A DNA stretch of 64,000 nucleotides from Methanoculleus taiwanensis (GTDB taxonomy: Archaea > Halobacteriota > Methanomicrobia > Methanomicrobiales > Methanoculleaceae). The stretch covers positions 611,984 through 675,983 of the forward strand of contig NZ_LHQS01000002.1 of NCBI RefSeq assembly GCF_004102725.1. The letters run 5' to 3'. The position numbers and the translations under genes were made by a program. The notes beneath the pieces were generated by a model. That model saw nothing but the letters and a program-made list of their open reading frames with translations, ran no database searches and was not told where the DNA came from. Shown one piece after another: positions 23,030-42,393 of the stretch. Positions within the stretch are counted from its first letter, which is position 1; every line of letters begins with the position of its first letter.

Positions 23030-24025
23030 TCACCGCCGGAGTATTGAGATCAGGAGCACACCGGCGAGTGCAAGCCAGATCGAGAAACCGGGCGCAGCGG
23101 TGCTCGCCGGAGTTGCCGGGCTCTCCGTGGTACGTATTGCCGTAAACGACGGCGTTACCACTGTCGTGCTCGCTGCTGTCGCCGTCGGCGTGGACACCTC
23201 TGCCGCTCCCGACGCTGCAGCGGAGAGAGACGTCGGTTCGGGTGTCGGGGTGGCCGTACCCGATGCTCCGCTAAGGTCGATGACGGCAACGAACGTCTGC
23301 TTCGCAAGATCGGTGATCGTCGCCGTCGGCACCGTGCAGGTTACCGTGTTCGGGCTCTCAGAAAGGGTATACTCGATACCCGCGGTCTCGAGATACTCGA
23401 TGAGTGCTGCGACCTCTCCGGTCACCACAACCGGTATCCCCTCGGAAGCTCCTGTGCGGTCCATTCTGTCACGGAGGCTCTCCGTGACGAGCGCCGCGTG
23501 CGGTGTCGCCGTTGGCTCGGGGTCGCTTCCGCCGCTATCGGGGGTAGGCGTCGGCGTTCCGGCAATATGTATCTGCCCGCTCCGAAGAGAGGCCTCGATC
23601 TCTGCTCCGGTGGGCGTGGCATCGGTCAGGGTCGCCGAGACAATCGTGAGTGACGTGGAGGCACCTGCAGCCCCTACCGCCTCGATCCCGATCTCGCAGA
23701 CCGTCGCCGCTCCTTCAAGTCCGGGGCTCTGGATCTGGAAAGCACCTATCCGGGCGGTTCCGAGCGAGTTATTGTAGTTCGAAAGCGGCCCGGTATCGAA
23801 ACTCCCACCGCTCACCCCGGTCACCTGCACGACCGCAGGGTTGTACGCAAGGTCGAGTGCGATCGTTCCGAGGTTCTCGGCGCCCGTCACGGAGACCTCC
23901 GCGACCGTCGTCTCACCCGGATTGAGAGTGATATCCTGAATCGATACCGTAGGTATGGCCTGCACCGCAACCGTTGCGTATGCCAGGCAGACGATAACCA
24001 GTATCCATTGCCATCTCTTCATCAT
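23030..24025 (-). CDS. cohesin-domain surface protein with PGF-CTERM anchor
   Basis: 331 aa. Signal peptide (1-23), then a cohesin-like domain at about 25-155 (VSIQDITLNPGETTVAEVSV, NLGTIALDLAYNPAVVQVTG, ARIGAFQIQSPGLEGAATV), a Thr/Pro linker, a small domain at about 180-255 (GIPVVVTGEVAALIEYLETA), another Thr/Ser/Pro linker and a C-terminal APGFSIWLALAGVLLISILR. That end is a PGF-CTERM type sorting signal, recognised by archaeosortase A, so the protein should be lipid-anchored on the surface. It follows the dockerin protease by 12 bases, making it the obvious partner. Confidence 0.83.
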   Translation of the reverse strand: MMKRWQWILVIVCLAYATVAVQAIPTVSIQDITLNPGETTVAEVSVTGAENLGTIALDLAYNPAVVQVTGVSGGSFDTGPLSNYNNSLGTARIGAFQIQSPGLEGAATVCEIGIEAVGAAGASTSLTIVSATLTDATPTGAEIEASLRSGQIHIAGTPTPTPDSGGSDPEPTATPHAALVTESLRDRMDRTGASEGIPVVVTGEVAALIEYLETAGIEYTLSESPNTVTCTVPTATITDLAKQTFVAVIDLSGASGTATPTPEPTSLSAAASGAAEVSTPTATAASTTVVTPSFTAIRTTESPATPASTAAPGFSIWLALAGVLLISILRR

Positions 24026-24037
24026 AGTTCACCAGGA

Positions 24038-25774
24038 TTAGTGCAATTCCAGAAAGCCCGGTACGCTGAGCACGTGCTTTGCCAGGTACATGGCGTCGGG
24101 CATGCCGACCGTTCCGTCGTTCGTGACGTCGGCGATGTTCGTATCGATATTCTCATATCCCTCGGTTCCGAGGAGATGCCGTGCGGTGTACAGGGCGTCG
24201 TAGAGGGTCACCCGGTTGTCCCTGGTGACGTCGCCGTTCCTGATCACGAGCAGCGGTATCGTGGCTGACGTGTTCGTACAGCCATAGGTGTCGGTTGCGG
24301 TGAGGGCAAGGTCGAACGGCCGGTAGGCTCCGTCGATGTACGGGGAGGGTACGCTGCTCGAGACGTTCAGCACCCAGGTCGCCCCCGTGCTCCGGTTCAT
24401 TGCTACGGCGGGTGCGCCGCCGAGCGGGGAGAGATCGATTGTCACGGTTGCGATCGGGTTGTCGCCGGTGACGGTAGCCGTCAGTGTCGTGGCCTCCCCG
24501 ATGCCCGGAGTGCCGCCGCCGAGGCTTGGGATGGATGCCGGTATCACCGTGCTCTCCGCAAGGGTGATAACCGATCGGCTGACGACCGCTTCGAAGGCGT
24601 CCACCCTGCCGTAGCCGTAGTACGAGTCCCTTCCGGCCGCGCCGAGATCGTCGGCGGTGGCCGCGAGGAGAGAGCGGAGCTCTGCATTCGTCATATCGGG
24701 ATAGCGAGACTTGACGAGAGCGGAGACGCCTGCGACGAAGGGGGTTGCCATCGATGTTCCCGAGGAGCTTTTGTACTGCCCCCCCGGCCAGGTCGAGTAG
24801 ATCCCTCTCCCCGGCACGACGAGCTCCTGCTCGCTGCCGTAATTGCTGAAGTCGCTGAGTACATTATTCGAATCGAGAGACCCGACCGCTATCACCGTGC
24901 TGAGGGCGGCAGGATAGAGGACGGGGCTGCGATACCCGTTTCCCGAGGCTGCGACGACGAGACACCCATTATCCCACGCATACTGGCAGGCTTCCTGCAG
25001 CGTAGTGGACGGGCTGCTGCTCCCGAGGCTGAGACTGATGATATCCGCACCATTGTCGACGGCGTGGGTGATGCCGCTCGCAACAGTGGATGAATAGCCG
25101 CCACCTCCTGCGTCGAGCACCTTCTCGGCAAGAATGCCGACCTGCGCGATCCCGGCAACACCGGCGCTGTTGTTGATCGTCGCGGCGGCGATACCGGCGC
25201 AATGGGTGCCGTGGCCGTTATCGTCCCGTGGATCGGCGTCGCCGTTCACCCAGTCATACCCGCCTGCCAGGTAGTTTGCTGCAAGGTCGGGGTGGGTATA
25301 GTCGACTCCGGAATCCACGATGGCTATGATGACGCTCGCGTCGCCCTGCTCGAGGTTCCATGCCTCGTCGGCCCTGATGGCGGCAGGCCCCCACTGGAGG
25401 GAATAGTAGGGATCGTTTGGAAGGAACGATGCCGGAGTGCAGGCGTATACGGGATAGTCCGGTTCGACGAATGCCACGTCCTCCCGGGCCGCCATCCCGG
25501 CGATAAACCGGTTGGTATCGTTCACCGCATAGATGACGGCATTCAGCGGTTCGCAGGTCTCGACCACCGCCGCACCGGCGATCTCTTCGGGTATCGGATC
25601 GGAAGAGGACACTGCTGCAACCTGCAGGCGTACCGGAGACGGCGTTTTGTAGCCGACGATCACACGCCCCGGAGTGCCCGTATCGTCGAAGGATGCTGCA
25701 ATGGCGAGAGCAGGTATCAGGAGTATTCCCGCAAGGAATGAAAATGCCAGTAATCGCTGTATATGGTTGTCCAT
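24038..25774 (-). CDS. secreted subtilisin-like (S8) protease with C-terminal dockerin
   Basis: 578 aa from the ATG at 25774. Signal peptide (1-27), an inhibitor-like propeptide (about 35-110, RVIVGYK ... EDVAFVEPDYPVY), and an S8 catalytic domain with Asp154 (VDSGVDYTHPD), His188 (GHGTHCAG), oxyanion Asn279 and Ser341 (GTSMATPF). A beta domain follows (about 430-510). Residues 515-571 hold two dockerin type I calcium loops, DVTRDNRVTLYDALYTARHL and DVTNDGTVGMPDAMYLAKHV. It should be secreted and held by a cohesin. First gene of an operon with a cohesin protein and two archaellins; clear TATA box upstream. Confidence 0.93.
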   Translation of the reverse strand: MDNHIQRLLAFSFLAGILLIPALAIAASFDDTGTPGRVIVGYKTPSPVRLQVAAVSSSDPIPEEIAGAAVVETCEPLNAVIYAVNDTNRFIAGMAAREDVAFVEPDYPVYACTPASFLPNDPYYSLQWGPAAIRADEAWNLEQGDASVIIAIVDSGVDYTHPDLAANYLAGGYDWVNGDADPRDDNGHGTHCAGIAAATINNSAGVAGIAQVGILAEKVLDAGGGGYSSTVASGITHAVDNGADIISLSLGSSSPSTTLQEACQYAWDNGCLVVAASGNGYRSPVLYPAALSTVIAVGSLDSNNVLSDFSNYGSEQELVVPGRGIYSTWPGGQYKSSSGTSMATPFVAGVSALVKSRYPDMTNAELRSLLAATADDLGAAGRDSYYGYGRVDAFEAVVSRSVITLAESTVIPASIPSLGGGTPGIGEATTLTATVTGDNPIATVTIDLSPLGGAPAVAMNRSTGATWVLNVSSSVPSPYIDGAYRPFDLALTATDTYGCTNTSATIPLLVIRNGDVTRDNRVTLYDALYTARHLLGTEGYENIDTNIADVTNDGTVGMPDAMYLAKHVLSVPGFLELH

Positions 25775-25820
25775 CGTTCTGTTCCCGTTCCGGTCGTTGA
25801 CACAGTGTCTTTTTGGATAC

Positions 25821-25832
25821 GATATATATAAT
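25821..25832 (-). promoter_or_regulatory. TATA box of protease-cohesin-archaellin operon
   Basis: Alternating tatatata run ~48 bases upstream of the ATG; start expected near 25797. Confidence 0.65.
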
Positions 25833-25974
25833 TGTTCCTTCCGCATAAATGCCGCGAAACCTCTTCTTTTAAAAATCTGTGTTATCCCCCGGATGCATGG
25901 GGCTTAGCATGACGTCGTGCCGGAGCAAAGGTCGGACTCATCGGTACGACCCGGCGCTCTGTGGTGCGCCCTCG

Positions 25975-26017: not shown

Positions 26018-27268
26018 TTACTGCCTCTTCCGGGCTACCAGCAGTGCCCCGCCGGCGATCGCCGCAAGCGAGAGCATGCCGAGGAACCAGGCGTCAGGTC
26101 CTGCCTTCTGGGTCGGCGTCCCGGTCACCGGCGTCGTCTCGCCGGAGGCAGGGATGACTGTGGGGCTCTCCACGTCCGGGGTCACCGTCGCCTCGCTGGC
26201 AAAGGTCATGAGGGCGAACTGCCCGGGGGCGGTGATATCGGCAACGATGGCGTTCCCTTCGATACGGCTCGGGACGATCGTCCAGGTGCCGCTTGCGTAC
26301 GCCGCAAGGAACGGAGTGGCCGCTTCACCGTTCAGGCGGAGGGAGAGTGTTGCGGCGGGGCTGAACCGTGCCGCTGCGGGCGAGACGACGTAGGTTCCCG
26401 CGATGACCTGCCAGTCGGCGGGGACGCTCATCGGGCTTGACTCGATGATGGCGAGGCTCTCCGGGTTTACCCCGGTGATCGCATCGCGGGCGACGATGAT
26501 CCCGGCGACACCGTCGAGCGATCCCGCAGAAATGCTGTTGGACGGTTCAGGGGTGGTCGTCGGTATGCTGCCGGACGGTGCACCCGTTGAACCGCTGCTC
26601 CCGGGCAAGGTGGTGGCGGTCGGGGATGCCGTGGGCGTCTGTGTCGGTGTCGCCGTCGGCACCTCGCCGATGATGATATTCTTATTCACTTCTTCGTTGC
26701 CGTTGACGAGGATGACGATCCGTGCCGTTCCCTGGTCGATCCCCGCGAGATCGAAGGTTATCTGCGAGTTATCAGGACCCATCTTCGTCCCGGAGAGTTC
26801 GAGTGAGAAATCGACACTCTCCGACCCGGATACGGCATCGCCGTAGGCGCGGAGCAGGTCTACGGAACCGCCTTTAATATTTTCGAGCCCCTGCGGATCG
26901 GGGTTCACGACACCGTCGTCATTATCGAACGCTTCTATGCTTTTTGCAGTGCCGCCGGTCTGTACTCGGAGTCCGGCACGCGTCGCCGGTTCGGCGCGAA
27001 TCCGTACGACGGGACTATTGAGCGAGAAGGGGATGTTCACGTTGGTGGCCTCGAAACTGAACTCGTCCTGGCCTTCGAGGCCGACCGTGGCCTCCATCCG
27101 GAGCGCGAATGTGCTGCCGTTCGCAAGACCGGCAGCGTTGATCGTAACGGTATCGCCGCTCTCGATATGGTCGGGGGTAATTGAGATGTCGAGGGCCGCT
27201 GCTCCTTCCACCGCGCAGAAGGCGAGCAGAATAAGGCCGCATAGGGTAAGTAATCGTTGATGCTTCAT
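26018..27268 (-). CDS. membrane-anchored surface protein
   Basis: 416 aa. Signal peptide (1-26, ending AAALD), then a beta-rich domain (about 27-205; DHIESGDTVTINAAGLANGS, EFSFEATNVNIPFSL). A Thr/Pro/Ser linker follows (PTATPTQTPTASPTATTLPG), then a second domain (about 255-360; PADWQVIAGTYVVSPAAARF) and a C-terminal helix AWFLGMLSLAAIAGGALLVA with basic end RKRQ. The domain pattern recalls the PGF-pre-PGF region of methanogen surface proteins. The tail (QKAGPDAW before the helix) could be a variant sorting signal. Own terminator, and 229 bp separates it from the next gene upstream. No catalytic motif seen. Confidence 0.7.
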   Translation of the reverse strand: MKHQRLLTLCGLILLAFCAVEGAAALDISITPDHIESGDTVTINAAGLANGSTFALRMEATVGLEGQDEFSFEATNVNIPFSLNSPVVRIRAEPATRAGLRVQTGGTAKSIEAFDNDDGVVNPDPQGLENIKGGSVDLLRAYGDAVSGSESVDFSLELSGTKMGPDNSQITFDLAGIDQGTARIVILVNGNEEVNKNIIIGEVPTATPTQTPTASPTATTLPGSSGSTGAPSGSIPTTTPEPSNSISAGSLDGVAGIIVARDAITGVNPESLAIIESSPMSVPADWQVIAGTYVVSPAAARFSPAATLSLRLNGEAATPFLAAYASGTWTIVPSRIEGNAIVADITAPGQFALMTFASEATVTPDVESPTVIPASGETTPVTGTPTQKAGPDAWFLGMLSLAAIAGGALLVARKRQ

Positions 27269-27497: not shown

Positions 27498-30400
27498 TTA
27501 GTTGTCCTTCTTCATGTAGAAGAACGCTGCTCCCGCGACGACGATGATCGCGACGATGGCGATGATGATCATCATGAACGGAAGTTCTTCGGTAGGCTGT
27601 GCCGGGGTCGTCGGGGTGACCTCAGTCGGGGTGGCCGTTACGACTTCAGTCGGGGTGGCCGTCGGCAGGACACCGGTGGTGTAGACGACCGCGAACATGC
27701 TGAAGTGCGTGACGGTGGCGGTCACCGTTCTCGTAGCCGCGTTGACCGTGGTCGGGACATCCTCCCAGGCATCGGTCTCTGCGTTGTACCACTTGAACGT
27801 CGGCACCTGGCCGCTGGCGATCATCGCGTTCCAGTCCTCTTCGGAGAGGGTGGCGGTGAGCGTCATGCCCGGGTTGAAGGTGGCGCCTGCAGGGCCGCAC
27901 TCATAGACGTAGCCGGAAACGCTGAAGAGGGCACCCGCCGGGGCTGCCGGAGCGTCGCTGGCCCGCTCGATGGTGATGCTACTGATGGGGTTGCCGTCTG
28001 CATCGAGAGCACGCACACCCGACTGCAGGGTGAGTTTCGCGCTCTCGTCGCTTGCAACGACGGCGATCGTCTTGGTCACGATACCGCTGCTGCTGGTCGA
28101 GACCACACCGCTTCCCTCATAGGTAACGACGCTACGGCTGCTGCCGCCGCCGCCGCCACCGCCGCCACTGGGCGTGTACGGCGTGGGCGTGGGGGTCGGC
28201 GGGGTTACCGGCACCAGGGAGATGCTGGCCTGGTTGTAGAGGGTCATGTTACCGTTGTTCTCGGTGAACATGTAGAGGTAGTAGTTGCCGGCGACAAGGC
28301 CGCTCGTTGCGACCTGGACGGTGCTCGAGTTCGTTGCAGTACCGTATTTGCCGTAGCCGGGCGTGATGTAGATGTTGCTGATGAGTTTCTCAACGGTCGT
28401 GTTGCCGTTCGCGTAGAGCCTCACGTCCTCGAGCGATCCGGTGCCGAGGGTCGTGAGGTTCAGCGCCATAGCGCCGGTGTAGGTCGCGTCCCTGTTGATC
28501 AGGAGCGCTGCGATGTTCTGCCCGGTGCTGCCTGCAGTGACCACGACGGGGCTGCCGATGGTGTAGCTCGAGGCGCTCGGGTTGATGTTCTGGCCACTCG
28601 CGGCGACCTGGAAGGTCTCCATGGTGATGATGCTGAACCGGTCCTGGTCGACGCAGACCGCGAGGACGACATACTCACCGGCGCCGAGATCGCTGATCTG
28701 CAGGGGCGTCGTGATGCCCGTTGCGGTTGCCGAGTTGAAACCGGCGTCGAGGTTGAGGTAGTTCGAGCGGATAGCGCTCATCAGGTTGCTGGACGCGCTG
28801 ATGGTACCTTCCTGCTTGAGGATGGTGATCGACCCGTCATTTGCTACACTGATGATACCGTAGCCGTACTGTCCGCCACCCTTGCCGTAGAGCACGATCT
28901 TGTCCTGGCTGAGCAGTTCCTGGAGCGTGCCTGCCGACGGGGAGGTGCTGGACGGGTTTCTGATCATCTGGTCGAGCAGGGTGCTGTTCGCCTTGCCGAT
29001 CATGATGGTGGCGTTGTCGACGTCGGGCACCTGGATCGTGAAGTCGAGGCTGCCGGTGGGGGTCGCGTAGATCTTGATCGCCGCAGGCAGCTCGCCGGCG
29101 GTTATGGGATCGTTCTTCCGGTTGTCGAGGGTTGCATTGCTTCCCGGGACGATCGTCTTCGTAAACGTGCCGAAGGTCGGGAAGGTCATCGCCGTGTTCG
29201 GGCCGGTCAGGGTGATCGCCCGGGCGACGTCGAAGTAGTTGAAGATAGCCGTCTTCGAGAGATCGATGCCTGCAAAGGTGCCGAGCGAGGCATCGTTGTA
29301 GTAGGCGAGATAGTTGTTGTAGAGGTGGAACTGTGCGCTCTGACCCTGGTTGCCGGCGAGGTCGACCGCAGAGACGGTCAGGTTCCGGTTGCCGGGCGCG
29401 GTGTTCAGGAAGAGCATGCCGGGGTTTGTCGTGTTGGTGACGGTCTCCACCCATGCCTGCTTGAAGTTCGCGTCGGTTACGGTGTAGGAGATGATCAGGT
29501 TCTCGTTCGCCTCGACGAATCCGTCACCGTCGGAGTCCTGGATGCCGGTGATGGTAACGACGGGCGCTGTGGTGTCCTTGGTGAAGGTCACGGTCGCGCT
29601 CTGCTGGGAGGCGTCAAGCGAGCTCGTGCCGTTGACGACGACTACGTAGGTGTTGTCCGCGAGGACGCCGTACGAGGCGTAGTTGAGGGCGATGGCTCCG
29701 TCGGTTGCGCCGCCGCTGACCGTACAGTCAGTCGTGACGTCGACGTTGTTTAAGAACATCTTGACACTTGCCTGGTTCACCTGCACGAAGGCCGCGGTGA
29801 TCGGGGGCTGTGCCTGGTTCGTGTAGTTGCCGTCCGCAGGAGCGGTGATGGTGACACCGGACTGGGCGACGGTGACGTAGTGGATCCTTGTGCCGATGTT
29901 TCCTGTCAGGTCGCTTGCCGAGACTGCGACCGGGACGTTGGTTCCGATAGCGACGCCGCTCTTCGTGGCGGTGACACGGTACCCGCCGGCAATGGCCACG
30001 GTGTTCAGGGTGTCGGCCTGCTCGCCGCCGACGCTGACAGCGATGCTGGTCACGTTCACACCACCGACATCGGTGATATCAGCGACGACGGTCACGGACT
30101 GTGCAACCGTTGCGCCGTCAGCCGGGGATGAGATAGTGATCGCAGGCGAGGTGTAATCGGTTGTGGTGAACGTACCGGGTACGAGGGAGTACTGACCTGT
30201 CACATCGCCGCCGACCTTTTCATCGACTTCATGATTCGCATAAGCGCCGTCGATGGCGATTGCGGTTGAAGTGCCGTCGTGGACAAGTGCATTACAGGTC
30301 AGGGACAGCAGCGTCTGATTTCCGGTAACACTCTTGCTGCCGGAGAAGTCCTGGACATAGACAATACCATTTGTTACGGGAACAGGTGGATTGTAGAACT

Positions 30401-30641
30401 GCCCAAGCCCTGCGTAGTCAGTAACGGCCGTGACATTCATCACTGCCGGGTCCCAGGTGATCTTTAAGTTATACCCGTTGAGCTGATCCGAACCGTTACA
30501 GGTTACGAATATCTCAACCCCCGCAGTGCCCGTTGCGGACGACACCTGCAGCTCTTTTGCGGCAGATGCTCCGGAAACGGCAAACACGGAGAGAATGAAT
30601 AGAATGCTAATGCATAAGCAAGCTTGGCGTATGGTGGACAT
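27498..30641 (-). CDS. large surface protein with cohesin-like and Ig-like domains
   Basis: 1047 aa from the ATG at 30641, with GAGGAG five bases upstream. Signal peptide (1-28, ending SGASA). Residues about 30-155 are cohesin-like (LNGYNLKITWDPAVMNVTAV, GIVYVQDFSGSKSVTGNQTL). Two Ig-like repeats follow (about 165-350; PAITISSPADGATVAQSVTV and VTITAPADGNYTNQAQPPIT), then a calcium-loop-like DSDGDGFVEANE, a long middle region, a Pro/Thr and nine-Gly hinge, and a PGF-pre-PGF-like domain (FNPGMTLTATLSEEDWNAMI, TVTHFSMFAVVY). The end is a Thr/Pro stalk and one helix (MMIIIAIVAIIVVAGAAFFY) with MKKDN. Many NxT/S sites. Probably a cell-surface scaffold; 53 bases after the gene upstream. Confidence 0.75.
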   Translation of the reverse strand: MSTIRQACLCISILFILSVFAVSGASAAKELQVSSATGTAGVEIFVTCNGSDQLNGYNLKITWDPAVMNVTAVTDYAGLGQFYNPPVPVTNGIVYVQDFSGSKSVTGNQTLLSLTCNALVHDGTSTAIAIDGAYANHEVDEKVGGDVTGQYSLVPGTFTTTDYTSPAITISSPADGATVAQSVTVVADITDVGGVNVTSIAVSVGGEQADTLNTVAIAGGYRVTATKSGVAIGTNVPVAVSASDLTGNIGTRIHYVTVAQSGVTITAPADGNYTNQAQPPITAAFVQVNQASVKMFLNNVDVTTDCTVSGGATDGAIALNYASYGVLADNTYVVVVNGTSSLDASQQSATVTFTKDTTAPVVTITGIQDSDGDGFVEANENLIISYTVTDANFKQAWVETVTNTTNPGMLFLNTAPGNRNLTVSAVDLAGNQGQSAQFHLYNNYLAYYNDASLGTFAGIDLSKTAIFNYFDVARAITLTGPNTAMTFPTFGTFTKTIVPGSNATLDNRKNDPITAGELPAAIKIYATPTGSLDFTIQVPDVDNATIMIGKANSTLLDQMIRNPSSTSPSAGTLQELLSQDKIVLYGKGGGQYGYGIISVANDGSITILKQEGTISASSNLMSAIRSNYLNLDAGFNSATATGITTPLQISDLGAGEYVVLAVCVDQDRFSIITMETFQVAASGQNINPSASSYTIGSPVVVTAGSTGQNIAALLINRDATYTGAMALNLTTLGTGSLEDVRLYANGNTTVEKLISNIYITPGYGKYGTATNSSTVQVATSGLVAGNYYLYMFTENNGNMTLYNQASISLVPVTPPTPTPTPYTPSGGGGGGGGSSRSVVTYEGSGVVSTSSSGIVTKTIAVVASDESAKLTLQSGVRALDADGNPISSITIERASDAPAAPAGALFSVSGYVYECGPAGATFNPGMTLTATLSEEDWNAMIASGQVPTFKWYNAETDAWEDVPTTVNAATRTVTATVTHFSMFAVVYTTGVLPTATPTEVVTATPTEVTPTTPAQPTEELPFMMIIIAIVAIIVVAGAAFFYMKKDN

Positions 30642-30694: not shown

Positions 30695-31477
30695 TTAAAT
30701 AAGTTTTCTTATCTTTGCGAGGCAAATTGCGGCAATAATCACTCCGCTAATTACGAGTAGCGGGCTCGACGGTGACCTGGGGGTTGTTTGGGGTTCGGTG
30801 CTTTTTGCCGTCGTTTCTGCCGACACCGCGGGCGCCAAAGAAGGCGATGGCGTCGGCAGCGGCGTGCTGCCCTCCGTGAGTGCAGGGGATGCGGCAGGTA
30901 TCACCGTCGATGATGGCTCCGGAGTTCCGGAGGGCGCGGGTGCCGGGTTGCCGGTGACACCCGACCCGGTAGACCCGCCGGTTGCAGTGGATGTTGATCC
31001 ACTTGCAGTGCCGGTCGGGGGCACGTATCCGGTTTCCGGCTGATAGGCAGGCACTGTGGGCGTCGGCGAGCCGGTTGCATCGGGCATGGCGCCGATTGTA
31101 TTGGAGACCGCCACATCATTGAGGTCGCTGTCATACAGTTCGTACACCACGATCGAGAAATTGCCCTTACCGGCATAGGTAAACCTGGCAAGGCGGGCAG
31201 AGTACGTATCGCCTCCGGTAAACCCGACGATCCGTGTCCACCCTTCATCGTTCCTGATCCCGAACACGCCGGTGTAGGGCGGGAGCGCTTCGACATCCAG
31301 AATACTGGTATCTGCAGAGTAGTTCAGCTGGATATTGTATCCTGCGATCTTTGTCGAATCACTGGCTACAAAGGTGAGATACTGCTGATCGCCATCACTC
31401 TCGATGACGATCTCACTTGCTGCTGTCACTGAAACGAGTGCGATTGCGAGTAAAAAAATGAGTGCTGTTCGGGTCAT
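30695..31477 (-). CDS. cohesin-like membrane-anchored protein
   Basis: 260 aa. Signal peptide (1-19, VSVTAAS), then a compact cohesin-like domain (about 20-130; KIAGYNIQLNYSADTSILDV, GWTRIVGFTGGDTYSARL, ARFTYAGKGNFSIVVYEL). A ~100-residue Pro/Thr/Ser/Gly stalk follows and then a C-terminal helix (LLVISGVIIAAICLAKIRKL). Built like an anchoring scaffoldin with one cohesin. It sits 22 bases after the giant thioester/dockerin protein and is the nearest candidate to hold that dockerin. Confidence 0.72.
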   Translation of the reverse strand: MTRTALIFLLAIALVSVTAASEIVIESDGDQQYLTFVASDSTKIAGYNIQLNYSADTSILDVEALPPYTGVFGIRNDEGWTRIVGFTGGDTYSARLARFTYAGKGNFSIVVYELYDSDLNDVAVSNTIGAMPDATGSPTPTVPAYQPETGYVPPTGTASGSTSTATGGSTGSGVTGNPAPAPSGTPEPSSTVIPAASPALTEGSTPLPTPSPSLAPAVSAETTAKSTEPQTTPRSPSSPLLVISGVIIAAICLAKIRKLI

Positions 31478-31499: not shown

Positions 31500-34400
31500 T
31501 TAGAGGGGCTGGTAGTTGTCGTCGTACTGACCGGGGATCAGATACTGTGCAATGCTGATTGCATCCTGCAGCCGTATACGGCCTGAGTCGTCGACATCGC
31601 CGTAGAACTCATCGTTACCCGTCAGTTCTCCCTGACCCGGCAAGAGCGACTGTGCAATGGTGATGGCGTCGGTCAGACGGATCCTGCCGTTGTTGTCGAC
31701 ATCTCCGAGCATTCTGCCCTCGAAGTCGAGGTAGATCTGATCGATATCTCCGGTATCGACGTTGTTCAGGATGAGCTGGCCGTTCTCGATGGTGAAGTCG
31801 GTGTAGGCGAACCATCCGGAGGCGTTGTGCACGAGCACGCTGATCGTGTCGTTCACCATCGCCGTGCCGATAGTCCGGTTGACCGTCGGGATCTCGACTG
31901 CAATCGTCGCCCGTCCGCCGCTGCTCGAGATACTCGAGTTGAACGACGTCATGGCTCTGGTCGCGGCATTCCAGCGGTTGGTACTGCCGTTGCTGATAGT
32001 CTCCTCGATAGCCGGCGGCATCACGCGTGCATTGCCGCTCGCGCCCTCGATCTGTGCGATGTGCGGCAGCGTGCGGTCGGAGACGAACTGGGCACTGTAG
32101 GTCGTGGTATCGCCGGGTGTGACGGTGATGGTGGTGTTGACCCAGGAGGTCTCGTTCCGGATTGCGACGGCGTAGGCGCCCTCGACCCGCTCCACTGAGG
32201 TGATGTTGGTGTTCACTGCGACCGCTGCACCGTCAACGTAGAAGTCGGCGAGAACCGCTGCTCCCTCTTCGTTGACTGCATCCAGCGTGATGTTTCCGTA
32301 GCCCTTGATGTAGGTTGCCCCGTCGGCGACCGCCATCCAGGTGTCGTTGTACATCGGGTAGGCACGTGCTTCGACCGAGTTGTTGCCGTAAGCCTCGAAG
32401 GTCAGCGGCACGTAGAAGGTCTTGCTCGCGCCGGCGGTGATACTCGGCTGCGATTCGTCGTCAGAGCCGGGGTAGACGTAGAGTTTCGCCGTGGTGGCGT
32501 TGTACATGTGGTTGATGTAGACCGGGCTGCCTTCGGAGAGGTAGTACGCGGTGGCCGAGCCCGTTGCACTGCCCGTGAAGTTCACGCGGGACGTGATCGG
32601 GATCTCGATGATCATCGTCGTCTGATCCACGGCTCCGGGCCCGTTGTTGTTAATCGTGAACCCGACGTCGGCAGCGTCGCCTTCGGTGAGCGTGTATCCG
32701 CTGTTCGGGATAGCCACGTCGAGGAAGAAGTCGGTTGCGATCGGGTCGATGAACTCCGCGGGGATGGATGCATATGCGATAGACTGCGGCACCTTCTCGA
32801 AGCTGTTGACCTCGACGAAGAGTTTCGCCTCATCCACGGTTCCGACATCCGACTTGCCGGAGACGATCACCTGTGCCACGGAGTCTGCCGAGGGGACGCT
32901 GTAGAGCGAGGCCACCTGGGCGGGCGAGAGGGTGTAGACGTACTGGAAGTTGGCATTGTCGAACTGGATGTTGTTCAGCGACCATACGGTGTCGCCGTTT
33001 CCGTTCTTCAGCTCCGCGTCGACGTTGAAGTTGATGGTTGCGTGCGGCTGCACCTGGGTTAAGGTGTTGATGACGACTGCGGTCGTCCGGGTGCTGCCCC
33101 AGCCCCAGCTGCCCTTGGCGCCGAGCAGGTAGCGGACACCGCCGGCGATCGTCTCGTTGTCGGCGTCGAGTCCGGACCGGTTCAGGGCGAGGACTGCGTG
33201 AGCCGTGGCCTCGGCGCTCTGGTCCCAGGAGTAGGATCCTGCCAACGCTGCGCTCTTCTGGTTCAGGAGTTTCGTCTGCAGGGCGGTGATGTTGCTGTTG
33301 ATAAGCGCAGCATCGCCGAGACCGTGTTCGCGGATCGCGACGAGACCGTAGATCCCGTGAGCGACTGCCTGCGGCCCCTCGCTGTTGTAGTTGTGGTTCT
33401 CGAGCCAGGTGAGCGACTTGTTCAGGGTGGCGTTCACGCTGGTCTTCATCGTGTCGTTGAGGTAGGGATAGTCGTTTGCCAGCTTCTCGCTGGTGAACCC
33501 AGTCCACTCCACCTCGTTGTAGATGTAGCCGTAACCGGACCAGCGCCCATCGGTCTTCTGCTGGTTGATCAGCCAGTTCGAACTTGCGTTCAGGTTGATC
33601 TCGTCAGGAGTGAAGTTGACCGCACTGCCCCAGTACTCGGGGTCGTTGTCGTTTAAGAGTTCGGTGATGACGTAGTTCGGGTAGAGCGTGTAGAACGCAG
33701 ACGGCCTTGAGTTCTTGCCCCAGGCCCATCCGCCGGATCCGTCACCGTACGATGCGCCCGGGAGCTGCTGGGCGTTGTAGCCGTTCGGTGCGCTCATCCG
33801 CGCGATGGCATCCTGCATGTTCTGCTGGAAGGAAGCGTTCATCGCGTCGGTCAGCGCCCCGCGCTGCTCGTAGTACTGCTTAACTCTGAGGATAGCGAGC
33901 GCCGGGCTCATCGTCTGCTCGGGGCATCCGTGCGGGTAGCCGACGAGCTGTTCAAGACCGTTCAGCGTCCTTCCCTCCGCTCCCGCGGCGAGGGTCACTT
34001 TGACGCTCTTCCCCTGCGAAGGCGACCGGTTGAAGACGTCGAAAGGCACCGCATCTCCGGCAGTGTCGGCGATCAGGGTGCTGTTGACCACCTTGATGTC
34101 GAGGAGCGGTTCCAGCACCCGGATGGTGCCGTTGACGTAGTCGGACTCGCCGCGCGCTTCAAGGCTGATCGAGTAGTCGAACGTGCCGAGCACCTTCGGT
34201 CTGATGTAATACCAGGTCACCGAGTTCCAGGTCGAGTCGTAGCAGTACGGCTGGAGCGTCGCCGGGTAGTAGTAGTGGAGGTCGAAGGGCGAGTCCTGTG
34301 ACAGGTCGACCGGCGTCCCGTTCGGATACCAGATCGAGAGGGTGGCGTTTGGCCGTGCCGGCTGGTTTGCGGTGTAGTAGGTGCCGAGCGAGAAGTACTG

Positions 34401-37400
34401 GTTGACGTACGGGGTCTTGTTGTAGTTGTAGTACCGCTCGTAGTAGTTCTCGTTCGTGGTGGTGATCTCGAGGGTGAACGGCTGAATTACGGTGTTCCGG
34501 ACGGCGGCATTTCCTATGGGGTAGTCGTCACCGGAGATCTGCGCCTTCACCTCGTAGGTGCCGGGCACCATGGGTTTCCATGTGTTGATCGTGAAGTACT
34601 TGCTTGCGTAGGCGCCGAGCGGCACCGACGAGGCCGACCAGATCTCGGTGCCGTTGATCGTCACGTTGACGTCGACGGTGACCGGGTTGGTCTTCGCGTT
34701 CCAGACGCTGACCGATATGGTCTGGTTGTAGCCCTCCGAACCGATCGTCGGGACATACAGGTTCACGCGTGCATCGGAGACATTCTCCTGCGTGTACAGG
34801 CCTTTCGTAATGCCGAGATTGAGATAATTGCCGCCGGTCGTCTTGACGTAGGCGTCGGTCTGCGAGTCGAGTACACTCGTTCTGCCTGCATCGGCTCTTG
34901 CTTTCAGGGTGATATCGGCAACGTTGATGTTACCGAAGATGTTGACGTCCGTCCCGGTGATCGTTACCCGTCCGTAGGACGACGACCAGGTGACACCGCT
35001 TCCGGTCTTTACGGAGGATACGTAGCAGACGGTCGGGTCATACTTGATCGGTACGGAGAACGCCGTGATCGGTGCGGAGACATTCGTCAGCCAGAGAGAG
35101 AGCGTCGCGTCTGACGACGTCGAACCGGTCACACTCGGCAGAATGACGGTCACGGGTGCGTAGGCCTGGTAGCCGGTCGTGCGGGTGTTGTTGTTCGGGT
35201 TCGTCTCGACCTCGGCACCGTCGCTGTTGACGGTGACGGTGAAGGCCTTCTGGCTGCTGCCGATCGCAACGCCGGTCAGGGTCTGTGTCCAGGACTCGCC
35301 GGGCTGCAGGGCGGGAACATTGTAGATGGTGCTCGCACCCTGGTTTGTGAAGTTGAGCTTCGTCGCGACCGCGTAGACGTTGCCGATGTTCCGAACACCG
35401 TAGGTCACGTTGTAGGTGCCGGGCACGACCTCTTCCTGGATGGTGGTCTCGCTCGACGGGAGACCGGCGGTCAGTTCGGTCGAGAGAACCGGGATGAGAT
35501 CGGGTTTCGTGATGGCGGCCTGGTGGGTGACGTAGTTGTTCTCCTCGTTGACCTCTTCGACCTCATTGTCGACATCGATTCCAAGGCCGATGGAGTAGTC
35601 GCCGACGCTGATGTCACCGCCGGTCGTGATGACGTAGGTGCGTTCCGATCCCGATCCGCCCATGACGACACTGGTCTCCGGGTAGCCGGGGATGACATTC
35701 ATCGTCATGTGGTAGGTGAGCTTCCCACCGGCGGCGATGTCGTCGGTGATGGTAATGTTTGTCTTCTGGCTTCCAAAGCCTCCCTCAATCTTGAAGTCCT
35801 CGGTGACGCCCACGGTGCCGACGTTCTCGATCACCATGGTGGTCGTGAAGTTGAGGTGGCCGTCTGCGTACTTCTTGATGTATGCAGGGGCGTCCACGAG
35901 GTAGCCGCGGAGGTCGGCGCCCGCCGGTGAGACGATGGTTACTTCGCCATTTACGATGCTCGCGAACGGAGTGCTGATCGTTACGTTCTCGCGGGGGTAG
36001 TACCACTTCTGGATGTGGTAGTACGCGGCGAATTCGGTCTTATCACCGACATCTCCGACCGCCTTCATTTTGAAATCGGCGAGCGGCGTGACAGCGTTCG
36101 TGTTCAGACCTCTCGTATTGTTGAAGAACAGCCAGGCGGAGCTGGATCCGCTTTCATACTCGCTCAGCCACGGGTCGTCGAGCATCACGCCGGCAGCGGT
36201 AGCGGTCTGGCTTACGGTGATGTTCGCGATGTTCGTGAAGGTGACGATGGAACTGTTGTAGTTAGGGACGCACATCATCTCGTCGACCAGTCCCAGGTCC
36301 TGTACGGAGAGCGAGAGCGTCTTCTGGGTGCCGACGGTCACGGTGCCGTTCGGTAACGTGAGTATACCGCGGGCCGCCGGGATGTTGCCGCCGGATGCGG
36401 TGACGGTGCCGTTGACAGTCCTGTTGAACTGGAAGTCCCAGTACGCTGCTGCGCCGACGTCGGCGCCGGACTGCATCTGCTCGATGATATCGGTGCTGTA
36501 GAGGTTGACGGAGCCGGTTCCGTAAGACCCGTACATGACGGTCTTACTCTCGCCCGCCCTGTCCGTTGTCCGGTAGGTGATATCGAGGATCGGTGTCGAA
36601 TCCGAGACGGTAAGCCCTGCTGGTGCGAAGACGTAGGCATTAACGTAGCCTATCGTAGAGGAGTACTCGCCTTCGAGCATTCCGTTGCCGCCCCATCCGT
36701 TCGAGAGGAAAACGCCCTCCGGCATCCCCTGGCTGAGCTGCATATCCTCAACGGCGATGTAGGCCGCATCGAACTCGACCTGGATCCACACCGCGGTCGC
36801 GTCCGTCAGGTTTGCAACGCTGACGCTGAAGGTACCGCTCTGCCCGGAAGCGATGCTCCCGGATGGCCCCGTGAGTGTTGACAGGGGTGCCTGCGTCGGG
36901 GTCGGAGTCGGCGTCACCGTGGGTGTGCCGCCCAGAACCGTGAACGTGCCGTTGACGGTGGTGACCGGGATGCTTTCACCGCCTTCGCTTTCGAGGCACA
37001 TGACGCTGAGGTTCAGCGGGCTCGTCTCCCCGGCAGTGCCGACAGCCCGCAGACTCACATTACAGACCTTCACCGGGCCGGTGAGTTCGGAGCCGCTGAT
37101 CTGCAGTCCCCCGATGGAGGCCCAGCCGGTTTCGTTGTCGATGAAGTAGATCGGGGTGTCAAAGTCGCTGCCCGAAAGTGCATCGACGTAGACCACATCC
37201 GGATCGTACACAAGGGCGACACCGCATGTGGCGGGGGATGTCGGAAGATCGTTGATCATAATCGGTACGGTCATCGTCCCGCCCGGGGCGACCGCGGCGC
37301 CACCAACAGATATGGTGGTCGCCACGACCGCGCCCGCGGGAAGAATGATCATTGCTATCAGGATGAGTAGCAATGGCAGAATTTTAGCGGTATTCTTCGC

Positions 37401-37415
37401 TTCTTTTTCAGTCAT
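31500..37415 (-). CDS. giant surface protein: cohesin-like and CARDB repeats, thioester domain, C-terminal dockerin
   Basis: 1971 aa from the ATG at 37415, with GAGGTG about seven bases upstream. Signal peptide about 12-32. Cohesin-like domains are near 33-160, 180-345, 350-490 and 775-900 (for example CGVALVYDPDVVYVDALSGS and ITAFSVPIKYDPTVCYVSSV), with CARDB-like repeats at about 495-770 (EEVNEENNYV, VETNPNNNT). Residues about 1145-1450 match the thioester domain of alpha-2-macroglobulin/complement proteins: LEQLVGYPHGCPEQTMSPA gives Cys1164 and Gln1167, followed by the helical toroid (SSNWLINQQKTDGRWSGYGY, GWGSTRTTAVVINTLTQVQP). Residues 1905-1964 are a dockerin with loops DVDNNGRIRLTDAITIAQSL and DVDDSGRIRLQDAISIAQYL. 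First gene of its operon; no membrane anchor, so it should be held by a cohesin. Confidence 0.85.
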   Translation of the reverse strand: MTEKEAKNTAKILPLLLILIAMIILPAGAVVATTISVGGAAVAPGGTMTVPIMINDLPTSPATCGVALVYDPDVVYVDALSGSDFDTPIYFIDNETGWASIGGLQISGSELTGPVKVCNVSLRAVGTAGETSPLNLSVMCLESEGGESIPVTTVNGTFTVLGGTPTVTPTPTPTQAPLSTLTGPSGSIASGQSGTFSVSVANLTDATAVWIQVEFDAAYIAVEDMQLSQGMPEGVFLSNGWGGNGMLEGEYSSTIGYVNAYVFAPAGLTVSDSTPILDITYRTTDRAGESKTVMYGSYGTGSVNLYSTDIIEQMQSGADVGAAAYWDFQFNRTVNGTVTASGGNIPAARGILTLPNGTVTVGTQKTLSLSVQDLGLVDEMMCVPNYNSSIVTFTNIANITVSQTATAAGVMLDDPWLSEYESGSSSAWLFFNNTRGLNTNAVTPLADFKMKAVGDVGDKTEFAAYYHIQKWYYPRENVTISTPFASIVNGEVTIVSPAGADLRGYLVDAPAYIKKYADGHLNFTTTMVIENVGTVGVTEDFKIEGGFGSQKTNITITDDIAAGGKLTYHMTMNVIPGYPETSVVMGGSGSERTYVITTGGDISVGDYSIGLGIDVDNEVEEVNEENNYVTHQAAITKPDLIPVLSTELTAGLPSSETTIQEEVVPGTYNVTYGVRNIGNVYAVATKLNFTNQGASTIYNVPALQPGESWTQTLTGVAIGSSQKAFTVTVNSDGAEVETNPNNNTRTTGYQAYAPVTVILPSVTGSTSSDATLSLWLTNVSAPITAFSVPIKYDPTVCYVSSVKTGSGVTWSSSYGRVTITGTDVNIFGNINVADITLKARADAGRTSVLDSQTDAYVKTTGGNYLNLGITKGLYTQENVSDARVNLYVPTIGSEGYNQTISVSVWNAKTNPVTVDVNVTINGTEIWSASSVPLGAYASKYFTINTWKPMVPGTYEVKAQISGDDYPIGNAAVRNTVIQPFTLEITTTNENYYERYYNYNKTPYVNQYFSLGTYYTANQPARPNATLSIWYPNGTPVDLSQDSPFDLHYYYPATLQPYCYDSTWNSVTWYYIRPKVLGTFDYSISLEARGESDYVNGTIRVLEPLLDIKVVNSTLIADTAGDAVPFDVFNRSPSQGKSVKVTLAAGAEGRTLNGLEQLVGYPHGCPEQTMSPALAILRVKQYYEQRGALTDAMNASFQQNMQDAIARMSAPNGYNAQQLPGASYGDGSGGWAWGKNSRPSAFYTLYPNYVITELLNDNDPEYWGSAVNFTPDEINLNASSNWLINQQKTDGRWSGYGYIYNEVEWTGFTSEKLANDYPYLNDTMKTSVNATLNKSLTWLENHNYNSEGPQAVAHGIYGLVAIREHGLGDAALINSNITALQTKLLNQKSAALAGSYSWDQSAEATAHAVLALNRSGLDADNETIAGGVRYLLGAKGSWGWGSTRTTAVVINTLTQVQPHATINFNVDAELKNGNGDTVWSLNNIQFDNANFQYVYTLSPAQVASLYSVPSADSVAQVIVSGKSDVGTVDEAKLFVEVNSFEKVPQSIAYASIPAEFIDPIATDFFLDVAIPNSGYTLTEGDAADVGFTINNNGPGAVDQTTMIIEIPITSRVNFTGSATGSATAYYLSEGSPVYINHMYNATTAKLYVYPGSDDESQPSITAGASKTFYVPLTFEAYGNNSVEARAYPMYNDTWMAVADGATYIKGYGNITLDAVNEEGAAVLADFYVDGAAVAVNTNITSVERVEGAYAVAIRNETSWVNTTITVTPGDTTTYSAQFVSDRTLPHIAQIEGASGNARVMPPAIEETISNGSTNRWNAATRAMTSFNSSISSSGGRATIAVEIPTVNRTIGTAMVNDTISVLVHNASGWFAYTDFTIENGQLILNNVDTGDIDQIYLDFEGRMLGDVDNNGRIRLTDAITIAQSLLPGQGELTGNDEFYGDVDDSGRIRLQDAISIAQYLIPGQYDDNYQPL

Positions 37416-37774
37416 ACTCTTCCACCTCAAAAGGATTCTTGCGGAAGGGAACAGTTGTGCTCTGATGTAGGGAGATACGTAGATCTTCTCTCAATGGTGG
37501 ATAAATACATTTCTGTTTACAGAATTTCCACAAAACAGGTTTAAACGAAATTATATTTGATATTTGAGCTATTTTTCGATTGCACCTGATCAGCGGCTCC
37601 GGCAAAGCACCCCGTGATACATACGTCTTCTGCCCGAAATAGTCTCTTCCCATTCCGTTTCTCCGGTTTGGGGCGATGCCGGAAGCCGGCGCACCACCCC
37701 GAAGGCTACGATGCCTATCCGTGCGTGGTTAACCGTCAGTGCCTGTCTGAATCCGTATATAATGGTATCCCGAT

Positions 37775-37900: not shown

Positions 37901-38881
37901 ATGCCACCCGACGCTTCCGCCGATGCGCTGATCACTGCACTGAACCCGCGGGCGATTCCTCGCGACCTCGCGATAATCTATGCCTGGATCCTCGTAACTC
38001 TCGCGAGTATCTATCTCCCTGTGTTCAATACCAGTTTTCTTCGGGTGCTCTTCGCGCTCCCCTTCATCCTCTTCATCCCCGGATACCTCCTGATCGCCGC
38101 GCTCTTCCCGAGAAGCGACGATCTCGATGGCATAGAACGCGTCGCCCTCTCGTTCGGACTCTCCATCGCGGTCGTCCCGCTGATCGGGCTTGCCCTGAAC
38201 TACACGCCGTGGGGTATCAGGCTCGATCCGATCGTCGCCTCGCTCCTGATCTTCAGTGCCGCGATGGGGCTCATCGCCCAGTACCGGCGCTCGGCCGTCC
38301 CTGCCGGAGAGCGGTTCGTCGTTCCTTTCGGCGAGGCCGCCGCTGCCGTTCGCGGAGAATTCTTCAATAAAGACGCCTCCCGCCTTGACCGGGTCTTAAG
38401 CATCGTGCTGCTCGCCTCGATCCTGGTCGCCGTCGCGACGACGGTCTACGTCATAGCCGTCCCGAAAGAAGGGGAGAAGTTCACCGAGTTCTATATCCTC
38501 GGGTCGAAAGGCATGGCTGCGGACTACCCGACCGACTTTGCCGCGGGAACCGCTCAGACGGTGATCATCGGGGTGGGGAACCACGAATACCGGAACGTCA
38601 CCTATACCGTCGAGACCCTCGGGCTCAACCAGGTCTTCGATGAGACGACGAACGAGTCCGCGATTCTGTCGTCGACACTGCTCGACCGGTTCACCGTGAC
38701 CGTGCCGCATAACGAGACCGTCGAACAACCTTATACGTTTACCCTCACCGATCCTGCGGTGAACCGGGTTGAGTTCCTCCTCTATGAAAATCCCCCGGCA
38801 GACTCGGTGACCGCGGCCGAGCGGATCAACGAAAGTTACCGCGACCTGCACCTCTGGGTCAGGGTACGACCGACAGGATGA
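37901..38881 (+). CDS. DUF1616 membrane protein
   Basis: 326 aa. Four or five helices: residues 22-45, 47-70, 80-105, 112-128, then after a cytoplasmic loop a helix at about 165-187 and an extracellular domain (AAGTAQTVIIGVGNHEYRNV, FTVTVPHNETVEQPYTFTLT). This is the layout of archaeal DUF1616 proteins, with the FALPFILFIPGYLLIAALFP start typical of the family. Often found by surface-glycan or surface-protein genes in archaea. Its last 23 bases overlap the convergent gene. Confidence 0.85.
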   Translation: MPPDASADALITALNPRAIPRDLAIIYAWILVTLASIYLPVFNTSFLRVLFALPFILFIPGYLLIAALFPRSDDLDGIERVALSFGLSIAVVPLIGLALNYTPWGIRLDPIVASLLIFSAAMGLIAQYRRSAVPAGERFVVPFGEAAAAVRGEFFNKDASRLDRVLSIVLLASILVAVATTVYVIAVPKEGEKFTEFYILGSKGMAADYPTDFAAGTAQTVIIGVGNHEYRNVTYTVETLGLNQVFDETTNESAILSSTLLDRFTVTVPHNETVEQPYTFTLTDPAVNRVEFLLYENPPADSVTAAERINESYRDLHLWVRVRPTG

Positions 38882-39629: not shown

Positions 39630-40096
39630 ATCTCTTCTTCTCCGAGACAGGTCTTCTGCAGCTGGTATCCGGAAAGGGCAATGGCGACCGATGCGATGAC
39701 GACTCCTGCCCCGATCGCAAGAACCGGCAGGAGGGTGTGGCGAAACGCCGCCATACCCGGGTAGATGAGCAGGATCGCTCCCGCGAGAACGGCGAAGGGA
39801 ACGGCTTCGTGCCGCGATCGAAGGAGATTGTGCGCCCGGAGAAAGACGGCGAAGAGCAGGATCTGCAAGGAAAGCGCGGGGAGCAGCGCTCCCGTCCCGA
39901 CAGCGATGACGGGCGCCTCTCCGGCGCAGAGGAGATAAAAGCCCCGGTCGGGGAGGGTGCGGGTCGCCCGCTCTGCGACGATGTATACACCGAGCAGGGC
40001 GACTATCAGGTACCAGATATCCGATAGGGCGGCGGCCGCAAGCGTGGCGATGCAGAACGCGGCGACAAGGCCGCCGGTCAGCGTCTCTTCTCTCAC
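39626..40096 (-). CDS. polytopic membrane protein of MoxR operon
   Basis: 156 aa from a GTG at 40096, with GAGGTG five bases upstream inside the end of the DUF58 gene; GTGA overlaps the DUF58 stop. About five helices (LTGGLVAAFCIATLAAAALS, WYLIVALLGVYIVAERA, APVIAVGTGALLPALSLQIL, AVLAGAILLIYPGMAAF, VLAIGAGVVIASVAIALSG). No named family. The arginine-rich frame upstream lies inside DUF58 in another frame and is not part of it. Confidence 0.6.
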   Translation of the reverse strand: MREETLTGGLVAAFCIATLAAAALSDIWYLIVALLGVYIVAERATRTLPDRGFYLLCAGEAPVIAVGTGALLPALSLQILLFAVFLRAHNLLRSRHEAVPFAVLAGAILLIYPGMAAFRHTLLPVLAIGAGVVIASVAIALSGYQLQKTCLGEEEI

Positions 40097-41406
40097 GCGA
40101 TCACCTCGACGCTCTCGACGTCGGCGGCGAGCAGTGCTTTGAGCATGCCCGGCGACGCGGCGCTCTCCGGAATGCGGAGGTGGACGTCCTTCTGCATCCG
40201 TTTTGCCTGGGTGATCGTCTGCCATATGTGGCTCAGATCCCCCTCGAACGGGCTGAAGATGTACACTGCCCCGGCATTGATCGATCCCATAACCCTGCCC
40301 ATCTGCATCTCAAAGGCCGTCTTCTGATCCCGGTGCATCTCCCGGTATACCGAAGCGAGCGTGGCGGCGAAGTGGTAATCCGGAGAGTCTTTCGGCAGGC
40401 GGGCGATGTCCCGTTCGCATCTCCCGAGTTTCGATCGAACGGCGACCTCGTCCCGGGCATAGTACTGGTGGACGAGCCGTTCGGCAGGTCGCAGGTCTCC
40501 GACGGCAGACATAACCCGGTGGATGTCGCGCTCGCCCGGGAGGTAGCGCACGACGTTTCCGCCCGAGATGATGAGGAGCGAGACGAACCGGTGCTCCAAA
40601 ATTGCATCCTCGAGCGCTCCGGTCACCGCGGATACGAGCGGGTCGCTGTCCGGCATCTCCGGGCGGAGCGTGGCGTCGGGAAGATCGACGAGGATCAGGG
40701 GAAGGTTTCCCTGCTGGCTTGAATACTCTTTGACGAAGAGTTTCTGGTGTTTCGCGGAGAGTTTCCAGTCTATCCGGCGGGGGTCGTCGCCCGTGACGTA
40801 CTCCCGGAACGAATGGATGCTGTACCCGGAAAACGACGATCGTTCCCGTCGCTCCGCATCTCCGTAATCCCTGCCCCCGCTCTCGCTCTCAAAAGCACCC
40901 GACGGGTGCACGAGGATCTCAGGCAGCGTATCTTCTCCCCTCCTGAATGCGAGATCTCCGGTAAAGAACGGATCGGCGATCGTCACGCCGATTCCGGAAA
41001 ACCTCACCTCTCCCCGTGCCATGATCCGCGCCCGGTAGGTGATGACCGCCGTTCCCTCGCCGGGCCTGGTGGTGGAGGCCGTAGCATCTCCTCCAATCAG
41101 GACGGACCCCGCCGGGGGCATGTCGCGGACGGCAAGGGTCGTCTGTTCGGGCAGAGTATAACTTATGGCGACCGTCACGTCGACGACGCCTCCCTGTCTG
41201 ATGATCGTCCGGTTCGTCGTGCGGTCGACCGTGACCGAGCGGGCTATCGTCCGCATCTTTCGGTCGAAGATGATAGCCCGTGATACGAGGAGCAGGACGA
41301 GTGCTGCTCCCGGGAGGAAGGCTGCCGGTTCGTCGAGCACCAGGGCGAATACAAGGAGTACCAGAATGAGTGCGGCGACGCCTTGCGTGCACCGTGTCGC
41401 CTGCAC
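40093..41406 (-). CDS. DUF58 domain protein
   Basis: 437 aa. Two N-terminal helices (about 8-45), a beta domain (RTIIRQGGVVDVTVAISYTL, RGEVRFSGIGVTIADPF), then the DUF58 signature GRDYGDAERRER followed by SFREYVTGDDPRRIDWKLSA and a vWA-like domain (NLPLILVDLPDATLRPEMPD). DUF58 proteins work with MoxR AAA+ ATPases, apparently in assembling or activating surface or metal-containing complexes. Its start lies three bases after the MoxR stop. Confidence 0.9.
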   Translation of the reverse strand: MQATRCTQGVAALILVLLVFALVLDEPAAFLPGAALVLLLVSRAIIFDRKMRTIARSVTVDRTTNRTIIRQGGVVDVTVAISYTLPEQTTLAVRDMPPAGSVLIGGDATASTTRPGEGTAVITYRARIMARGEVRFSGIGVTIADPFFTGDLAFRRGEDTLPEILVHPSGAFESESGGRDYGDAERRERSSFSGYSIHSFREYVTGDDPRRIDWKLSAKHQKLFVKEYSSQQGNLPLILVDLPDATLRPEMPDSDPLVSAVTGALEDAILEHRFVSLLIISGGNVVRYLPGERDIHRVMSAVGDLRPAERLVHQYYARDEVAVRSKLGRCERDIARLPKDSPDYHFAATLASVYREMHRDQKTAFEMQMGRVMGSINAGAVYIFSPFEGDLSHIWQTITQAKRMQKDVHLRIPESAASPGMLKALLAADVESVEVIA

Positions 41407-41409
41407 GGT

Positions 41410-42384: not shown

Positions 42385-42393
42385 GGTGATCGC

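Follow-up and report, generated by a model that had tools for sequence, protein, structure and literature searches.

A complement-type thioester domain in a predicted cohesin- and dockerin-bearing secreted protein of Methanoculleus taiwanensis and its linkage to subtilases in Methanomicrobiales

Thioester proteins are central to complement in animals and serve as periplasmic protease traps in bacteria. In the present study, we analysed a stretch of 64,000 nucleotides from Methanoculleus taiwanensis (contig NZ_LHQS01000002.1 of assembly GCF_004102725.1, positions 611,984 to 675,983; hereafter, the window), which, judged from its sequence and a predicted structure, encodes a giant protein with an alpha-2-macroglobulin (A2M)/complement-type thioester domain (TED) and an intact thioester motif. 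A search of the whole 2.75-Mb genome found no other TED protein. On the minus strand, the TED gene is followed by genes for a 260-amino-acid cohesin-transmembrane (TM) protein, an immunoglobulin-type TM protein (Ig/TM protein), a 416-amino-acid TM protein, an S8 subtilase with a dockerin, and a 331-amino-acid cohesin-TM protein, successive genes lying no more than 229 bases apart. Every Pfam-detectable cohesin of the genome falls inside this gene run.

The TED class is already known in archaea. The main text of a study from 2021 (PMC8416519) describes 27 archaeal A2M homologues with CxEQ from Halobacteria and Methanomicrobia, some of them near endoproteases, and proposes a role in immunity. 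Those homologues resemble the present protein in having a TED with CxEQ, a signal peptide, Ig-type domains, and, in some cases, an endoprotease nearby. That main text makes no mention of cohesin, dockerin, or subtilisin; members of the cassette described below may be listed in the supplement. We found no literature report of the cassette or of a fusion of S8 and TED, PMC8416519 being covered by its main text.

The giant protein and its thioester domain

A preliminary description made from the sequence alone had proposed an A2M/complement-type GCPEQ thioester motif in a helical toroid, joined to three to four cohesin-like domains, CARDB repeats, and a dockerin, and all of these were borne out. 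It numbered residues from the likely ATG start, whereas we count from a TTG five amino acids earlier; thus, its Cys1164 and Gln1167 are Cys1169 and Gln1172 here. The motif region reads LVGYPHGCPEQTMSPALAILRVKQYY. Two cohesin stretches, three CARDB stretches, TED_complement (PF07678, residues 1156-1305, 29.6 bits against a cut-off of 22), and Dockerin_1 each scored above the Pfam cut-off. Of the four cohesin-type domains, two were detected by Pfam and two by profile-profile comparison with the first, and the CARDB region lies between them. The protein is scaffoldin-like in carrying several cohesins as well as a dockerin with two calcium-loop repeats, both complete (DVDNNGRIRLTDA and DVDDSGRIRLQDA).

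We searched 199 genomes of Methanomicrobiales and obtained 25 TED proteins, with one cassette per genome. GCxEQ is kept in all 25. The Cys, Glu, and Gln of the motif and a Tyr at position -4 relative to the Cys do not vary across this set, in which identity falls to about 25%. The motif Cys is the only one of the seven cysteines of the window protein that is conserved among the orthologues, and the Pfam TED match exceeded the threshold used in every one.

The structure prediction that the preliminary description had called for was made with AlphaFold for residues 870-1700 (mean predicted local distance difference test score (pLDDT) 65; the N-terminal part poor, the MG7 part of low pLDDT). Residues 1152-1463 were modelled as about 12 helices, with a TED pLDDT mostly of 80-90 and beta strands on either side. 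Foldseek against the PDB gave TEP1 (E 2.6e-21), followed more weakly by C3, A2M, A2ML1, C5, and CD109, with alignments that span the model; this support is not wholly independent, as the alignment behind the model included bacterial A2Ms. A profile from nine archaeal sequences alone matched C3 (1.8e-10), CD109 (2.7e-10), TEP1 (5e-8), and also C4, reaching CD109 and TEP1 from before the TED (197-619) and C3 into the CUB domain (498-671). Three features of the A2M/TEP/complement superfamily, namely a helical TED, the GCxEQ motif, and CUB and MG7 domains around the TED, are present.

As the motif is conserved in all orthologues, lies in a predicted helical fold, and coincides with a Pfam match, a chance occurrence is ruled out. 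A toroid of the squalene cyclase type only is rejected, since such proteins, of about 670 amino acids, match the TED profile over its C-terminal portion alone, and the TED proteins carry GCxEQ in a CUB and MG7 context. It is conceivable that the motif is a relic, in a domain that folds as a toroid and forms no thioester; the toroid does also resemble squalene cyclases, and one homologue outside the order (L158) has Trp for Gly before the Cys (YPYWCVEQ). We regard this as very improbable in view of the invariant residues, among which the Tyr is the counterpart of the pocket tyrosine in Salmonella A2M (PMC4498604).

The thioester could instead act as a covalent adhesin or cross-linker that attaches the cell to its neighbours, to syntrophic partners, or to its own surface layer, with the subtilase serving only to mature or shed surface proteins. 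An architecture rich in cohesin, CARDB, and PKD domains, the TM-anchored neighbours, and the patchy distribution of the TED protein across related methanogens are consistent with this explanation, whereas the TED is helical and of the A2M/complement type: the TIE fold of Gram-positive thioester adhesins did not appear among the fold matches listed, all of which were A2M/complement TED proteins. The adhesin explanation also leaves the tight linkage and fusion to S8, described below, in need of a reason, and we consider it unlikely.

A conserved cassette with a subtilase

In Methanomicrobiales, the cassette has the order giant S8 subtilase (with cohesin and dockerin; hereafter, the S8 giant), TED protein, cohesin-TM protein, and Ig/TM protein. 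The TED gene is followed by the 260-amino-acid cohesin-TM gene and then the Ig/TM gene at the 24 other loci (BLAST missed the 260-amino-acid gene in L138 and L140), and the S8 giant lies directly upstream of the TED gene at 21 of the 25 loci. Across the 199 genomes, 21 have both the S8 giant and the TED protein, four the TED protein only, three the giant only, and 171 neither (Fisher 1.9e-21); the full-length Ig/TM protein occurs in all 25 TED genomes and in two without TED (Fisher 8.9e-30), both values taking genomes as independent and ignoring shared ancestry. A scan of 20 giants showed an S8 domain in 17, the rest being cut or shortened open reading frames (ORFs); 18 of the 20 have a cohesin, and 15 have a dockerin. 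Nearly every full-length giant retains the Asp, His, and Ser motifs of the triad. Genomes G006, G046, and G086 have the giant without TED, and G039 and G031 have the full-length Ig/TM protein without TED; these may reflect recent loss and could help to date the cassette.

The TED proteins fall into two classes, with GYPHGCPEQ (eight proteins of 1.7-2.0 thousand amino acids with extra N-terminal cohesins and CARDB, including that of the window) and with GYPYGCVEQ (17 proteins of about 1.27 thousand amino acids), and no genome of the 199 has both. In the phylogenetic tree, the 25 orthologues and the TED proteins of L157, L159, and L025 form one group (support 100/100), outside of which lie bacterial A2Ms, Asgard homologues, and halophile-type archaeal homologues. 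A profile scan of wider genome contigs gave, among the matches listed, mostly bacterial A2Ms. L025 (3-3068), on a contig binned as Nanohaloarchaea, encodes a TED labelled class-a-like with a dockerin, by misbinning or transfer.

Linkage to S8 extends beyond the order. In L157, from a distant archaeon, S8 (from residues 279-421 on) and TED (2271-2451) are fused in one ORF of 2,671 amino acids. In L159, the gene just upstream of TED encodes an S8-dockerin protein, and an Ig/TM homologue lies downstream; L158 has an S8-dockerin gene near the TED gene. The TED frame of L157 and L158 stops after the CUB domain, the remainder lying in another frame, with a dockerin in L158. No S8 match was found in the 20-kb stretches read around halophile-type TEDs or at the bacterial A2M loci sampled. 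The main-text example of PMC8416519 is from Halobacteria, and the halophile-type TEDs here, which have no S8 neighbours, branch elsewhere in the tree. L160-L165 (G357, G247, G316, G319, G401, and G312) represent a separate archaeal TED family of about 1,280-1,460 amino acids with a MPYGCGEQNM-type motif and an IHQDMMGG-type segment similar to the complement His site.

The partnership of a subtilase with the TED protein is strongly supported by the conserved neighbourhood, the co-occurrence, and one fusion, which together suggest that protease and thioester act together. The preliminary description had called a protease-plus-trap system conceivable; the idea of a protease partner is supported, and that of a strict A2M trap is not. 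No Pfam domain of an MG1-MG6 ring, bait region, or anaphylatoxin region was found in the TED protein at E<=1, although a similar search readily finds the ring and bait in L161, a halophile-type homologue that served as a positive control and matches human A2M in both halves (8e-124).

This bears on the explanation that the protein is a protease inhibitor in the A2M sense, covalently capturing attacking proteases or regulating its own subtilase. Membership of the TED family speaks for it, as does the residue near the position of the His that confers hydroxyl reactivity in C3 and C4B, where A2M has Asn (PMC7864068). The window protein has Asn and its class Asn or Asp near this position, whereas the other class has an invariant His (VCH). 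Amine-preferring thioesters suit protein targets, and the window class would be predicted to prefer amines and the other class hydroxyls; the alignment is loose here, so the preference is only a prediction. The invariant His of the second class, the lack of the ring and bait domains, and a protease in the same chain as the TED in L157, which would be odd for an inhibitor, argue against this explanation, and the fusion points to joint action on a single target, or to activation, rather than to a relation of inhibitor and prey. We therefore regard an inhibitor as improbable.

The gene run of the window

Features of the gene run are listed in Table 1. The dockerin protease that the preliminary description had noted near the giant protein is real. 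A candidate partner of the TED protein, it belongs to the same gene run, but it is neither an orthologue of the S8 giant nor a carrier of the TED dockerin type. Orthology is ruled out since the genome lacks any giant; a subtilase of 2,417 amino acids encoded elsewhere combines S8, beta-helix, and PKD and has no long match to the giants. The dockerin of the window subtilase is of a second type, which six further proteins of the genome share, including the 2,417-amino-acid protein (L172-L176, contigs C1 and C2). The branch that includes the window has lost the S8 giant, but the gene run of the window encodes a subtilase with a dockerin.

The 331-amino-acid protein is probably an anchor for dockerin cargo. 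The dockerin types of the subtilase and the TED protein being unlike, the subtilase most likely docks on this neighbouring cohesin, with the TED protein using a different one; this pairing is our inference. The cohesin label of the 260-amino-acid protein rests on likeness to its neighbours, as only two of 25 copies pass Pfam and the PDB profile search gave no significant match.

Table 1. Features of the TED protein and its neighbours in the window
Feature	Position	Strand	Remarks
TED protein, secreted, 1,976 amino acids from TTG	31500..37430	-	ORF open throughout; likely start ATG 37415
Cohesin domain 1, residues 39-165	36936..37316	-	Pfam PF00963
Cohesin-like domain 2, residues ~185-345	36396..36878	-	hhalign to domain 1, probability 97.7%
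Cohesin-like domain 3, residues ~350-505	35916..36383	-	hhalign to domain 1, probability 94.3%
CARDB repeat, residues 643-751	35178..35504	-	Pfam PF07705, 3 stretches; more CARDB-like stretches exist
Cohesin domain 4, residues ~757-875	34806..35162	-	Pfam cohesin in genome search; hhalign
MG7-like domain, residues ~977-1105	34116..34502	-	Placed by Foldseek/profile matches to CD109/TEP1; low model confidence
Thioester domain, helical toroid, residues ~1152-1463	33042..33977	-	Pfam, AlphaFold helices, Foldseek
Thioester motif Gly-Cys-Pro-Glu-Gln, residues 1168-1172	33915..33929	-	Cys, Glu, Gln conserved 25/25
CUB-like domain, C-terminal half, residues ~1470-1550	32781..33023	-	Model strands; profile match into C3 beyond TED
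Dockerin, two calcium-loop repeats, residues 1908-1964	31539..31709	-	Pfam Dockerin_1; loops
260-amino-acid protein, N-terminal cohesin-like domain, Thr/Pro/Ser linker, C-terminal TM	30695..31477	-	Adjoins TED in nearly all loci
Large Ig-type protein, N-terminal cohesin (weak), C-terminal TM	27498..30641	-	ORF open to 30725
416-amino-acid protein, signal sequence and C-terminal TM	26018..27268	-	Present at many loci
S8 subtilase with dockerin	24038..25846	-	Pfam S8 1e-62, dockerin 7e-9
Cohesin protein, 331 amino acids, C-terminal TM	23030..24025	-	Pfam cohesin 2e-8

A DUF1616 membrane protein gene lies repeatedly beside the cassette (37901-38881 in the window; also L024, L143, L145, L146, L148, L149, and L158). 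Genes resembling a DUF58/MoxR/DUF4129 set lie next to the cassette at 40093-44992 of the window, DUF4129 alone being confirmed by Pfam.

Proposed mode of action

With the domain content, the conserved motif, the fold match, the order and co-occurrence of the genes, and the fusion taken as shown, we propose, at about an even chance, a membrane-tethered surface complex in which the subtilase and the thioester protein act on the same target. The TED protein would be exported and form the covalent-capture subunit of the methanogen surface complex, with an internal thioester between Cys1169 and Gln1172 buried against neighbouring domains. Its dockerin would dock on the membrane-anchored cohesins of the same gene run (the 260-amino-acid, Ig/TM, or 331-amino-acid protein), and its cohesins would recruit dockerin partners. 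The partner would usually be the S8 giant encoded just upstream; in the window, the S8-dockerin protein whose gene lies downstream is the probable one. Exposure of the thioester may follow contact, cleavage, or a change of conformation. The TED protein would then bind its target covalently, and its co-localised protease partner would cut either the TED protein itself, as activation, or the captured target.

Several points weigh against such a complex. The giant occurs without TED in three genomes, and the four TED-only genomes, including that of the window, are one branch of the tree, from which the giant is absent. Within this branch, G024 has another S8 gene upstream of TED, and G011 and G037, of the window subclade, have no S8 gene in the stretches read around TED. 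The Fisher values are subject to the shared ancestry mentioned above. The TED protein lacks the detectable ring, bait, and anaphylatoxin regions, and no bait or activation site was identified in it. Finally, the window subtilase has the dockerin type of the six other proteins, unlike that of the TED protein, which makes it uncertain whether the two pair.

A two-component complement-like system can be proposed only tentatively: a dedicated subtilase would act as 'convertase' and the thioester protein as opsonin, both assembled on membrane-anchored cohesins, and the pair would represent a split or rewired macroglobulin, with MG-type domains in the S8 giant and the CUB-TED core in its neighbour. 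In its favour are MG4 matches in five of 18 giants (best 7e-6) and the fusion of S8 and TED in one lineage; a search for an MG ring hidden in the giant gave no significant PDB match. We regard it as doubtful.

The TED protein shares the MG7-CUB-TED arrangement, the GCxEQ motif, and the helical toroid with insect TEP1, complement C3 and C4, CD109, and A2M, but has cohesins, CARDB, and a dockerin instead of a detected MG1-MG6 ring, bait, or anaphylatoxin region. Bacterial A2Ms (ECAM/YfhM and Salmonella A2M) have a similar YPxGCxEQ with the pocket tyrosine, but are a separate branch of the tree, and their sampled loci have no S8 match. Dockerin/cohesin proteins are known from anaerobic methanotrophic (ANME) archaea (PMC9012536). 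Like these and the cellulosome scaffoldins, the present system has several cohesins and a dockerin per protein, membrane-anchored cohesins, and dockerin cargo; the cargo here is a protease and a thioester protein, whereas theirs is glycoside hydrolases or ABC binding proteins.

An archaeal cassette of a thioester domain, a subtilase, and a cohesin-dockerin assembly would, if true, be a third use of thioester chemistry. The genes are named, and the holders of the cassette include cultured methanogens, such as Methanogenium marinum; the cassette would give a tractable test for complement-like covalent tagging or capture at the archaeal surface.
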